Source: an uncultured Ruminococcus sp.
GTDB lineage: Bacteria; Bacillota; Clostridia; Lachnospirales; Lachnospiraceae
Direction: 5' to 3'
Assembly (NCBI GenBank): GCA_946494335.1
Contig: CAMMBV010000004.1
Coordinates: forward strand, 35,010-99,009
Length of the DNA stretch: 64,000 nucleotides
The notes beneath the pieces are model-generated. The model ran no database searches. It saw only the letters and a program-made list of their open reading frames with translations, and was not told where the DNA came from. Positions 9,501 through 15,272 of the stretch are shown in pieces. The position numbers and the translations under genes were made by a program. How positions within the stretch are numbered: the stretch's first letter is position 1; every line of letters starts with the position of its first letter.

Positions 9501-9529
9501 TTGACACAAAACGGTAAGTAGTATATAAT
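9501..9529 (+). promoter_or_regulatory. consensus promoter upstream of the urease operon
   Basis: TTGACA-17 bp-TATAAT, exact consensus. Confidence 0.88.
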
Positions 9530-9539
9530 ACCAACGAAC

Positions 9540-9581
9540 GAAGGCAAAGGTGCCGAAAATGACACCTTTGCCTTCTTTTTT
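9540..9581 (+). terminator. intrinsic terminator in the urease 5' leader (candidate attenuator)
   Basis: GAAGGCAAAGGTG / CACCTTTGCCTTC perfect 13 bp stem followed by TTTTTT, starting about 11 nt after the -10. Confidence 0.82.
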
Positions 9582-9591
9582 GGTGCGATAC

Positions 9592-9638
9592 GCCCTGCAA
9601 GTGGCTGCCGTGCCTGCACGAGCAGACATTTGCAGGGC
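9592..9638 (+). promoter_or_regulatory. long structured hairpin in urease leader
   Basis: GCCCTGCAAGTG / CATTTGCAGGGC outer stem with inner CTGC/GCAG and CGTG/CACG stems. Confidence 0.65.
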
Positions 9639-9682
9639 AGCGGACAACGCAACAGGTAAAAAGAACAACAGGAGGAGTGAAC

Positions 9683-9985
9683 ATGAGATTAAATCCAAAA
9701 GAACAGGAGAAGCTTTTGCTCCATATGGCCGGAAATCTGGCGAAGGAACGAAAGGAGCGGGGGCTGAAGCTGAATTATGTGGAAGCGGTGGCATATATCA
9801 GTTCTGAACTGCTGGAAATGGCCAGAGATGGAAAAGAAGTAGTGGAACTGATGCAGCTTGGAACAAAGCTTTTGAAAAAGGATGATGTGATGGATGGAGT
9901 GGCTGACATGGTACATGAGGTTCAGGTGGAAGCTACCTTTCCTGATGGAACAAAACTGGTAACGGTTCACAATCCGATTCAGTAA
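9683..9985 (+). CDS. ureA: urease subunit gamma
   Basis: [43 protein letters not shown] 9683 has an AGGAGGAG RBS. Confidence 0.97.
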
Positions 9986-10000
9986 AGGAGGTTCTGACAG

Positions 10001-10363
10001 ATGAAAATTGGAGAAATTATTCCGGCGGACAGGGAGATTACAATAAATGCAGGTAAAAAAACAGTTGTGCTTACCGTGGCAAATAAGGGAGACCGTCCGG
10101 TGCAGGCAGGCTCACATTTTCACTTTTTTGAGGTGAACAAATGCCTGGAATTTGATCGGGAAAAGGCATATGGCTATCATCTTGATATTCCCTCCGGGAC
10201 TTCAGTAAGATTTGAGCCCGGTGAAGAAAAGGAAGTACAGCTTGTGGAAATGGGCGGAACGAAAAGAGTGTTTGGTTTTCAGGATCTGACCTGCGCACAG
10301 GTATCGGAGGCCACAAAACAGGAAGCTGTGGACAGAGCGAAACAAAGAGGATTTATAAAATAG
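10001..10363 (+). CDS. ureB: urease subunit beta
   Basis: [20 protein letters not shown]...[23 protein letters not shown]-type sequence. Confidence 0.97.
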
Positions 10364-10378
10364 CAGGAGGACAAAAGG

Positions 10379-12100
10379 ATGAGCGTAAAACTTTCCGGGG
10401 AAAAATATGCGATGATGTATGGACCCACAACGGGAGACAAGGTGCGCCTGGCGGATACGGATCTTGTAATAGAAGTGGAAAAAGATTATACCACCTATGG
10501 AGATGAAATAAAATTTGGAGGAGGAAAGACCATCCGGGACGGCATGGGGCAGTCAGTGAAAACCTGTAACAGTGACGGCGATCTGGATCTGGTTATCACC
10601 AATGCACTGATTCTGGATTATACCGGTATTGTAAAAGCGGATATTGGAATTAAAGACGGAAAAATCAAAGGAATCGGGAAGGCGGGCAATCCGGCCATCA
10701 TGGATGGAGTGACGCCCGGCATGACGGTGGGAGCTTCCACAGAGGCGCTGGCCGGTGAGGGAATGATCGTAACGGCAGGCGGTATCGATACACATATCCA
10801 TTTCATCTGCCCCCAGCAGATCGACTGTGCCCTGTACTCCGGCGTCACCACCATGATTGGAGGAGGTACAGGACCGGCAGACGGAACCAATGCCACAACC
10901 TGTACGCCGGGGCCGTGGAACATGGAAATGATGTTGAAGGCAGCGGAAGAATATCCCATGAATCTGGGCTTTCTGGGAAAGGGCAACTGTTCGGATGAAC
11001 GTCCTCTTATAGAGCAGGTAAAAGCCGGAGCCATGGGGCTTAAGATTCATGAAGACTGGGGCTCCACACCGGCAGTTATCAATCATTGCCTGAATGTGGC
11101 GGATGAATACGATGTGCAGGTTGCCATTCATACGGATACGTTAAATGAAGGAGGCTGTGTGGAAGATACGCTGGATGCCATAGCAGGAAGAACCATTCAC
11201 ACCTACCATACAGAGGGAGCCGGCGGCGGCCACGCACCGGATATTATCAAGGCGGCGGCTGCGCCCAACGTACTTCCTTCCTCCACCAATCCTACCATGC
11301 CTTTTACAGTAAATACGCTGGATGAACATCTGGATATGCTGATGGTATGTCATCATCTGGATAAAAAGATTCCCGAAGATGTGGCTTTTGCCGATTCAAG
11401 AATCCGTCCGGAAACCATTGCGGCGGAGGATGTGCTGCACGACATGGGCGTGTTCAGCATGATGAGTTCCGATTCTCAGGCCATGGGACGTATCGGAGAA
11501 GTTATCACCCGTACATGGCAGACGGCCAGCAAGATGAAAGAGGAAAGAGGCCCTCTTCCCGAGGACGAAGGAAAGGGAAATGACAACTTCAGAGCGAAAC
11601 GTTATATTGCCAAATATACCATCAACCCGGCCATCACCCATGGTATTTCCAAATATGTGGGCTCTGTGGAAGAAGGAAAGATGGCTGATCTGGTGCTGTG
11701 GAATCCGGCCTTTTTTGGGGCGAAACCGGATATGGTGATAAAGGGCGGTATGATTGTGGCTTCCAAGATGGGAGACGCCAACGCTTCCATTCCCACCACG
11801 CAGCCCGTTTTTTATCAGCCCATGTTTGCGGCTCACGGAAAGGCCAGATATGACGCCTGCCTGACTTTTGTCTCAAAAGCGGCCATGGAAGAAGATGTGA
11901 AGGAAAAATATCATCTGGAAAAACAGGTGGTGCCGGTGGAAAACTGTAGAAATATCGGTAAAAAGGATATGAAGCTTAATAGTGCGGCTCCGGTGATTAC
12001 CGTGGATCCGGAAACCTACGAGGTTACTGCCGATGGGGTAAGCCTTACATCAAAACCGGCGAAAAAACTGCCCCTGACACAGATGTACAGCCTGTTCTAG
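10379..12100 (+). CDS. ureC: urease subunit alpha
   Basis: Active-site motifs [24 protein letters not shown] (carbamylated Lys), [21 protein letters not shown] flap. Confidence 0.98.
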
Positions 12101-12122
12101 GCTTGGAAAGGGGAAGAAAACG

Positions 12123-12629
12123 ATGTTAGGAGTATGTTTGTTGTTTGTTGGGATTGTGCTGATCAATAATGGTATCTGCAATCTCTGTAATGTAGATGGA
12201 AAATCAGCAGCGGTGATGAATATTTTTACCGGCGGATTATCCTTATTTATCAACTTTGTGAATCTGGCACAGGGGAATTATTATGCAGCGGGAACCGGAC
12301 TTTTGTTTGGTTTTACCTATCTGTTTGTGGCCATCAACAGCATTTTCAAATTGAGCGGAAAACCCTTTGCCTGGTTTTCCACCTTTGTGGCCGTCAATGC
12401 GTTCGTATTCGGAACGCTGGAAGGATTTACAGGGATTCAGGCCCTTGGCATTGAGCCTGATATCCGCTGGGCAGGGATCTGGTATCTGTGGGGAATTCTG
12501 TGGGGAACCTCTTTTGTGGAAGAGATCCTGGGAAAGAAACTGGGAAAATTTACTCCCTGTCTGCAGGTGTTTGAAGGTATTATTACTGCCTGGATTCCAG
12601 GGCTGCTGCTGATGATCGGTTTATGGTAG
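12123..12629 (+). CDS. ureI: AmiS/UreI-family urea/amide channel
   Basis: Multi-TM ~168 aa protein inside urease operon; LLFGFTYLFVAINSI...RWAGIWYLWGILWGTSFVEE. Confidence 0.85.
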   Translation: MLGVCLLFVGIVLINNGICNLCNVDGKSAAVMNIFTGGLSLFINFVNLAQGNYYAAGTGLLFGFTYLFVAINSIFKLSGKPFAWFSTFVAVNAFVFGTLEGFTGIQALGIEPDIRWAGIWYLWGILWGTSFVEEILGKKLGKFTPCLQVFEGIITAWIPGLLLMIGLW

Positions 12630-12647
12630 AAATGAAGGAGAACCGGG

Positions 12648-13127
12648 ATGCTTTGTGAGAAAATTTTAGGACGGACAGATCAGATGGATATGGCCGGATA
12701 CCAACTGGACTATGTGAGCATTGAATGGTATGAGGCCTTTAAGAAAATACATAAAAAGGTGACGGACAGAGGCGAAGAAGTGGGAATCCGGATGGATGAT
12801 TCTGTGCTGACCCGGGGGCTTTATGAAGGAGATATCCTGTATATGGATGAAAACCGCGCACTGGTGGTGCACACGCCAAAATGCCTGGTGATTCGGGTGA
12901 AAGTGGACAAGGCACACCCCCACATGACAGCAAAGGTCTGCTATGAGATAGGAAACCGCCATGCGCCGCTTTTCTACGGCGATGAGGAAGGAACCTTTAT
13001 CACACCCTTTAATGAACCTATGTACCAGATGCTGGAGAAGCTTCATGGCGTGACAGTGACAAAAGAGATACGGCGGCTGAATTTTGATCAGCGCATTTCA
13101 GCGGCAGTTCATAATCATCATCACTGA
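12648..13127 (+). CDS. ureE: urease accessory protein UreE
   Basis: Position in operon, size, short C-terminal His tail (HNHHH). Confidence 0.9.
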   Translation: MLCEKILGRTDQMDMAGYQLDYVSIEWYEAFKKIHKKVTDRGEEVGIRMDDSVLTRGLYEGDILYMDENRALVVHTPKCLVIRVKVDKAHPHMTAKVCYEIGNRHAPLFYGDEEGTFITPFNEPMYQMLEKLHGVTVTKEIRRLNFDQRISAAVHNHHH

Positions 13128-13139
13128 GAGGAGTCGTCC

Positions 13140-13832
13140 ATGGACAGTAAAATAAACAAATATCTTCTGCTGCAGGTAAACGACGCTTTATTTCCCATCG
13201 GAGGATACTCTCATTCTTACGGTCTGGAAACATATATCCAGAAAGACATTGTGAAAAATGAGGCGGACGCCGGCACATATATTAAAAACAAGATCCGGTA
13301 TAATCTGGCGTCCTCTGAACTGCTGGCCGCCAGACTGTGTTATGAGGCGGCGCAGCAGGAAGACATGAAGAAACTTATGGAGCTGGAGGAGACATACTTT
13401 GTCTCCCTGGCTCCAAGAGAGATTAAAGAGGCGGCGAAAAAGCTGGGGTCCCGTTTTGTGAAAACTGTGAGCAGGCTGGAAATTTCATATGTAAATTCTG
13501 TATTTGAAGAATACTGTGCTGCCGGAGAAGGAAGCCATGCCCATGCCTGCGCTTACGGCTGTTTCTGCGCATCGGCGGGAATTGGAAAGAAAGAAATGCT
13601 GGAGAACTTTTTATACAGTCAGACTTCCGCCATGGTGACCAACTGTGTGAAATCTATACCGCTTTCTCAGACCAGCGGGCAGAAAATTCTTACGGATATT
13701 TTCGGAATTTTCGGCCAGGTGTTGGATCAGGTGGAAGAATGGGGAGAGGAAATGCTCTGCGCAGGAGCGCCTGGATTTGATATCCGCTCCATGGAACACG
13801 AAAGACTGTATTCCAGAATATATATGTCATGA
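13140..13832 (+). CDS. ureF: urease accessory protein UreF
   Basis: LLQVNDALFPIGGYSHSYGLETYIQ motif. Confidence 0.95.
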   Translation: MDSKINKYLLLQVNDALFPIGGYSHSYGLETYIQKDIVKNEADAGTYIKNKIRYNLASSELLAARLCYEAAQQEDMKKLMELEETYFVSLAPREIKEAAKKLGSRFVKTVSRLEISYVNSVFEEYCAAGEGSHAHACAYGCFCASAGIGKKEMLENFLYSQTSAMVTNCVKSIPLSQTSGQKILTDIFGIFGQVLDQVEEWGEEMLCAGAPGFDIRSMEHERLYSRIYMS

Positions 13833-13872
13833 TGCTGACTGTAAATAATATACCTGTAGGGAGGAACGAAAT

Positions 13873-14481
13873 ATGTCTTTTGTAAAAATAGGCGTGGCCG
13901 GGCCGGTAGGTTCCGGAAAGACGGCGCTGATTGAAGCGCTATCCAGAAAAATGGCAGGAGATTACAGCATTGCTGTAATTACCAACGATATCTATACGAA
14001 AGAGGATGCGCAGTTTCTGACGAAGAACAGTGTTCTGGAGCAGGAGCGGATCATCGGTGTGGAGACGGGCGGATGCCCCCACACGGCAATCCGCGAGGAT
14101 GCTTCCATGAACCTGGAGGCCGTAGATGAGATGGCAGGACGTTTCCCTGATCTGGAAATTCTGTTTATTGAAAGCGGCGGTGACAATCTGTCGGCCACCT
14201 TCAGTCCGGAACTGGTAGACGCCACCATTTTTGTTATCGATGTGGCGGAGGGTGACAAAATACCAAGAAAAGGTGGGCCGGGCATTACACGGTCTGATCT
14301 TCTGGTGATCAATAAGATCGATCTGGCGCCTTATGTAGGGGCAAGTCTGGAAGTGATGGACAGGGATTCCAGAAAAATGCGGGGAGACAAGCCCTTTTTG
14401 TTCACCAATATCCGTGAAAAGTCGGGTGTGGACCAGGTGGTTTCCTGGATAAAAGAAAATGTACTGCTGGAAGGAATGTAA
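13873..14481 (+). CDS. ureG: urease accessory GTPase UreG
   Basis: [16 protein letters not shown]-loop, [34 protein letters not shown]. Confidence 0.98.
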
Positions 14482-14483
14482 AG

Positions 14484-15272
14484 ATGAAGAATCAGTTTGG
14501 CAGGGTATCGGAATTGAATATCACCTCAGAAGAAGCGGAAGGAAAAACCAGGCTTGCGGATCTGTTTTTTACGGCTCCTTTTAAAGTCATGCAGCCGTTT
14601 CCCAACGGTGAGGGACTGCAGGTAATGATGCTTTCGGCCTCCGCCGGAGTGATGGCCGGGGATGTGCAGAAATTTTCGTTTAAAATCGGAGAGAAAAGCT
14701 GTCTGGAATTTGTATCCCAGTCCTTTGAGAAGATACATAAAATGGACGAAGGATGGGCTCAGAGAGAAATCGACGTTATGGTGGAAAAAGACGCTCTGTT
14801 TGATTTTTATCCTCAGCCCACTATTCCTTTTGCCGGGTCTGCTTATAAAAGCAAAATGGAAGTGAATCTTCAGGATGAGACCTCCCGCTTCGGCCTGTAT
14901 GAAATTTTGTCCTGCGGCAGAAGCGCTTCCGGGGAAAGGTTCCAGTATCGATTTTATCATTCGCTGATCCGGATTCGCCGGGAGGGAAAACTGATTTACC
15001 GCGACAATACCCGCTATGATCCAAAGGAGACGAAGATGGAGGGGCTGGGAATGTATGAGTCTTATACTCATCTGGCTAACCTGTTTCTCACCGGCAGCAG
15101 GGTACCGGAGGATGAGACCGAAGAAAAGGTACGGGACGTGATTGAGATGACCCCGGATGTAGAAGGTGCTCTGACGCGGCTGGAGTCCGGTGACGTTGTC
15201 ATCCGCATCCTGGGAAGACGCGCCCAGACGCTTCAGAATCTTACAGAAAAAATAAAAAAAATCGCTGTCTGA
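14484..15272 (+). CDS. ureD: urease accessory protein UreD/UreH
   Basis: Last gene of ure operon; VSQSFEKIHKM, DFYPQPTIPFAGSAYKS. Confidence 0.92.
   Translation: MKNQFGRVSELNITSEEAEGKTRLADLFFTAPFKVMQPFPNGEGLQVMMLSASAGVMAGDVQKFSFKIGEKSCLEFVSQSFEKIHKMDEGWAQREIDVMVEKDALFDFYPQPTIPFAGSAYKSKMEVNLQDETSRFGLYEILSCGRSASGERFQYRFYHSLIRIRREGKLIYRDNTRYDPKETKMEGLGMYESYTHLANLFLTGSRVPEDETEEKVRDVIEMTPDVEGALTRLESGDVVIRILGRRAQTLQNLTEKIKKIAV

Follow-up and report, generated by a model that had tools for sequence, protein, structure and literature searches.

How can a urease operon be expressed when the promoter in front of it fires directly into a terminator? This question is raised by a stretch of 64,000 nucleotides from an uncultured Ruminococcus sp. 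(hereafter, the window), in which ureA is preceded by such a leader. Based on the anatomy of the leader, its conservation and covariation, its gene association and the absence of a canonical first hexaloop, all of which can be read from sequence, we consider it likely that this element is a transcription attenuator under ANTAR control that uses one hexaloop and belongs to a nitrogen regulon.

Architecture of the ureA leader

The leader and the operon comprise the following features:

9501-9506, + strand: TTGACA, -35 element, followed by a 17-nt spacer to the -10 element
9524-9529, + strand: TATAAT, -10 element
9501-9529, + strand: sigma-70 type promoter (12/12 match; most related ureA leaders have a promoter at this position)
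9536, + strand: predicted transcription start, 7 nt past the -10 element according to a spacing rule
9540-9581, + strand: intrinsic terminator, 13-bp stem and TTTTTT (sequence; conserved with covariation; match to model R1)
9543-9554, + strand: ANTAR-type P2 hairpin GGC-AAAGGT-GCC, putative antiterminator (enriched in ureA-leader terminators; covariation)
9583-9647, + strand: 3'-shortened copy of a repeat (GYGCGATACGCC...) found at about 27 places in the genome, holding the hairpin 9592-9638
9670-9677, + strand: ureA ribosome binding site, AGGAGG region (sequence)
9683-9985, + strand: ureA, urease gamma, first gene of the putatively controlled operon (TIGR00193)
10001-15272, + strand: remaining operon with ureB, ureC, an AmiS/UreI-family transporter gene, ureE, ureF-like, ureG and ureD-like genes (ureF and ureD named by gene order)

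The promoter is a perfect sigma-70 site (TTGACA-17-TATAAT) and the sole one in the 8 kb scanned; transcription would start at position 9536 or nearby. The terminator stem begins 10 nt past the -10 element and consists of 13 perfect base pairs (9540-9552 with 9563-9575), followed by TTTTTT at 9576-9581. Both elements were thus confirmed as described in the initial annotation, which had reported an exact promoter with a perfect stem and T-run just behind it. The leader RNA folds with -63.3 kcal/mol (z -6.0 compared with shuffles). A simple terminator scan accepting loops of up to 8 nt missed the terminator, probably owing to a loop that counts as 10 nt; model R1, for whose construction the window was among the sequences used, matched at 9538-9580 with 55 bits. 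An Rfam scan of the leader gave no riboswitch or leader family at the gathering score. On this basis a riboswitch was rejected.

Within the operon, the AmiS/UreI-family transporter gene (window 12123-12629) lies between ureC and ureE. The Rfam family 5_ureB_sRNA (RF02514) matched at window 10534-10827 on the - strand, antisense to ureC, with 123 bits. This match is most likely due to conservation of the urease coding sequence and not to an antisense RNA being expressed.

An ANTAR-type hexaloop hairpin in the terminator arm

The 5' arm of the terminator has an alternative fold, GGC-AAAGGU-GCC (P2), in which a 3-bp stem carries a hexaloop with A at position 1 and G at position 4. Such A1/G4 hexaloops are the recognition loops of ANTAR proteins (PMC3369931, PMC8934654), and in the leader the loop is borne by a stem of the minimum 3 bp asked of an ANTAR-target RNA. 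As in ANTAR attenuators, P2 overlaps and excludes the intrinsic terminator, and its closing pairs (AC/GU) together with loop residues A1 and G4 are those required by EutV (PMC3369931). Folding of the growing transcript indicated that P2 forms in the nascent RNA ahead of the terminator; in the full terminator fold, the hexaloop is buried within the stem. That the P2 stem comprises only 3 bp was counted against the ANTAR reading.

Conservation and covariation of both folds

The leader was compared across 80 ureA loci from public genomes and five from relatives. Promoter and terminator proved to be genuine and conserved, both being found in nearly all Lachnospiraceae and allied ureA loci, where the 5' arm follows the consensus GRC-AAWGRN-GYC. 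Applying one rule to both sets of these related, non-independent sequences, we found a P2 hexaloop hairpin in 33/42 ureA-leader terminators versus 1/74 among the remaining terminators of these loci (Fisher p 1e-19). The relatives L059 and L088 have a G at hexaloop position 1.

These data bear on the simplest alternative, a plain terminator of the upstream gene adjoining an unrelated promoter, with no regulation at all. The upstream gene does end only 55 nt from the stem, but many genera have promoter and terminator in front of ureA with differing DNA upstream of the pair, and other terminators are nearly devoid of the hexaloop. We consider this explanation extremely improbable.

Among 26 aligned leaders, again related and with the C-G closing pair and G4 partly selected by the pattern used to pick the loops, the three P2 pairs were 100% paired and two of them changed on both sides, giving a covariation score reached by 0/500 shuffles. 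Terminator pairs were 95.9% paired with nine changed on both sides, and here, too, none of the 500 shuffles reached the score. Alignment column 7 covaries with its partners in both P2 and the terminator, which a switch between exclusive folds would predict.

Some loci deviate from this layout. In the longer ureA leaders L052, L053, L060, L062 and L075, the stretch from the -10 element to P2 includes an additional small hairpin without a hexaloop (e.g. CCCC-TGCA-GGGG). At L076 and L086, another terminator-like hairpin without a hexaloop lies by ureA (e.g. AGGGCGCC...GGCGCCCT in L076); the L086 genome has an ANTAR gene.

A glnA-linked ANTAR protein and a putative nitrogen regulon

The genome encodes one ANTAR gene, located directly 3' of glnA, and the same order was found in 19/19 other genomes whose contigs were long enough to show it, among them rumen spirochaetes and a member of the Peptococcaceae. 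An ANTAR gene directly after glnA also characterizes glnA-nitR of Clostridium, for which we know of no urease target or single-loop leader. Among genomes with the ureA leader, 30/31 encode an ANTAR protein, compared to 9/17 without it (p 5e-4); these nine leader-less genomes were counted against the ANTAR reading.

As in EutV/AmiR/NasR-type regulators, the ANTAR domain (PF03861, 2e-15) follows a receiver-like domain, and the predicted fold (mean pLDDT 91) matches Rv1626, EutV and AmiR. According to an alignment read by eye, however, almost every member of the glnA-linked family has G, S or A at the receiver position where EutV-type regulators carry the phospho-acceptor Asp. A kinase is therefore unlikely to control the protein as it does EutV, and the signal is probably received through contact with a protein or metabolite. 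Control of the leader hairpin by a small molecule or a different RNA-binding factor appears highly improbable, considering that loop and closing pairs fit the ANTAR code, that the leader is associated with ANTAR genes, that these lie in a glnA-ANTAR layout, and that no Rfam riboswitch was found in the leader.

A pattern search of the genome for a -10 box followed by the loop, combined with reading of the matches, yielded four sites at which promoter, hexaloop and terminator occur together, in front of ureA, glnA-ANTAR, a formamidase gene (NF009803) and a gene for a PuuD-like peptidase C26. The leader of the ammonium transporter gene amtB (L024) contains a weaker loop hairpin of 2 bp, then a repeat copy and then another hexaloop terminator, whose stem has 4 bp; its assignment to the same layout is less certain. 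At this locus (L024:1450-1750), the repeat copy is apparently flanked by two successive ANTAR-type terminators. Among 27 terminators from repeat loci of the genome, one has a hexaloop, and this is the one in the ammonium transporter leader. Used genome-wide, model R1 matched ureA, PuuD and formamidase, while its matches on C14, C17 and C10 lack a hexaloop and are ordinary terminators; glnA and amtB are absent from the R1 list and were found by the pattern search and by reading L024. The genes behind these leaders are all nitrogen genes, and urease is probably switched on together with the others by one ANTAR protein.

In the proposed mechanism, polymerase would start at about 9536, and within about 20 nt the nascent RNA could form the GGC-AAAGGU-GCC hairpin. 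Without active ANTAR protein, the RNA would refold into the 13-bp terminator and stop as a transcript of about 45 nt. Under nitrogen need, the ANTAR protein from the glnA-ANTAR operon would bind the loop via A1 and G4 and hold the 5' arm, whereupon polymerase would read on into the urease operon. The same protein would control its own glnA operon, the formamidase, the PuuD-like gene and probably amtB. While protein binding, read-through and the nitrogen signal are what we infer, the attenuation with protein-dependent antitermination of urease suggested in the initial annotation is strongly supported by sequence, and hexaloop, covariation and glnA-ANTAR arrangement point to the ANTAR protein as the factor.

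The leader RNA of about 45 nt would be a natural by-product of this switch and could have its own role. It might even be the actual product, acting like EutX/Rli55 as a decoy that sequesters the ANTAR protein: a strong promoter would yield much RNA with one hexaloop each, and single-loop sequestration has been suggested (PMC8934654). We judge this improbable, since the hexaloop is buried in the stem of the full terminator fold and the element is kept in cis before nitrogen genes across many genera instead of forming a lone RNA gene. A decoy role and control in cis could coexist.

One hexaloop instead of two

Known ANTAR attenuators carry two hexaloops, and EutV needs both hairpins in vivo, where deletion of P1 ablates eutP induction (PMC3369931). 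The 2022 EutV structure paper demonstrated binding of an ANTAR dimer to one hexaloop. Its authors nevertheless argued that antitermination against a moving polymerase requires both loops, leaving the extent to which single hexaloops function in ANTAR control as a question and asking for studies of single-loop targets (PMC8934654).

In the region between the -10 element and P2, 0/41 ureA leaders showed a canonical A1/G4 hexaloop hairpin (at least 3 bp), so that the upstream P1 hexaloop with short linker typical of ANTAR attenuators was found in none of them. Extending the search to 60 nt upstream gave an A1/G4 hexaloop in only 4/41. The P2 stem begins 3-11 nt past the predicted start in 20 ureA leaders, and 0-4 nt past it in the glnA leaders (nine related ones and that of the genome itself); in the L178 glnA leader, this stem comprises 2 bp only.

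A standard two-hexaloop attenuator, whose first hairpin is non-canonical or forms part of a longer transcript that starts at a promoter further upstream, would accord with the need for two loops in published systems (PMC3369931). In about half of the ureA leaders, P2 is also preceded by 20-45 nt, which in some cases include other small hairpins. Both the missing upstream hexaloops and the short distance of the stem from the predicted start (up to about 11 nt in the 20 ureA leaders and in the glnA leaders found) speak against this possibility, which we consider unlikely. With no canonical second loop in the ureA leaders, one loop must suffice unless transcription starts elsewhere. As a speculation, a loop at the 5' end, being the first structure to emerge, might stand in for the first loop.

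It appears somewhat probable that Lachnospiraceae and relatives harbour a class of ANTAR attenuators with one hexaloop at the very start of the transcript, for which one loop is enough and which exposes a nitrogen regulon. The published ANTAR target searches that we consulted required two hairpins and would miss this class; our search of non-subscription literature gave nothing on ANTAR proteins and urease or on single-hexaloop attenuators. Since these leaders lack a canonical second loop and often have little room for one, single-hexaloop action becomes directly testable. If true, a urease switch would be named for a large group of gut bacteria and tied to glutamine synthetase, ammonium uptake and formamidase.

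Comparison with known ANTAR systems

The ureA leader shares several features with the EutV-controlled eut leaders of Enterococcus faecalis (PMC3369931, PMC8934654), namely the A1/G4 hexaloop with conserved closing pairs, a loop hairpin that overlaps and excludes the terminator 5' arm, and an ANTAR protein in the genome. In contrast to these dual-hexaloop leaders, it has one hexaloop almost at the transcript start, a receiver without phospho-acceptor Asp and nitrogen instead of ethanolamine genes. NasR/nasF of Klebsiella and AmiR/amiE of Pseudomonas likewise represent ANTAR antitermination of nitrogen or amide genes, but they use two hexaloops (PMC3369931), and the regulator described here sits after glnA. 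EutX/Rli55 also is a short terminated RNA carrying ANTAR hexaloops, whereas the present element lies in cis before an operon and has one loop.

A dispersed repeat downstream of the terminator

The initial annotation had included the second hairpin (9592-9638) in the switch. This hairpin is present as described, but it turned out to be one copy of a dispersed repeat. Compared with its own genome (3.26 Mb, 81 contigs), the leader matched the window and 26 further places (E < 0.004), mainly with the portion 3' of the terminator. Copies begin with GYGCGATACGCCCGGCAAGCGG... directly after the terminator T-run in constant orientation; by a strict rule, 21/27 copies checked directly follow a hairpin plus T-run, and most others narrowly missed the rule, lay at a contig edge, or followed the tail hairpin of the repeat itself or a group II intron end. 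Full copies measure about 165 nt and end in ...CCCTATCCGATY, the window copy being 3'-shortened. Overall, the repeat (GYGCGATACGCC...CCCTATCCGATY) spans 70-165 nt 3' of intrinsic terminators (window 9583-9647, L015-L038, L195-L203), and it also occurs in other Lachnospiraceae genera, where readable copies likewise follow terminators. The ureA leader of a same-genus relative (L010) has promoter and terminator without the repeat, which is absent from the ureA leaders of most other relatives, too. Given the dispersed copies and the absence in L010, we regard the second hairpin as an inserted repeat and no urease element, and rejected it as a switch component.

An assignment as REP/RAYT element was rejected, as the genome has no Y1 transposase. 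The 5' end of the repeat and its terminator target resemble group IIC introns, but there was no Rfam match: the group II D1-D4 and domain V models did not match the repeat copies in L018, L028 and L031, whereas they did match the true introns in L049 and L050. These two group II introns encode a reverse transcriptase and each start just after a terminator-like hairpin; the L050 intron is directly followed by a repeat copy. In two further genera (L070, L085), the terminator of the ureA leader is likewise followed by a copy of the dispersed repeat family, suggesting that insertion has recurred at sites of this kind.
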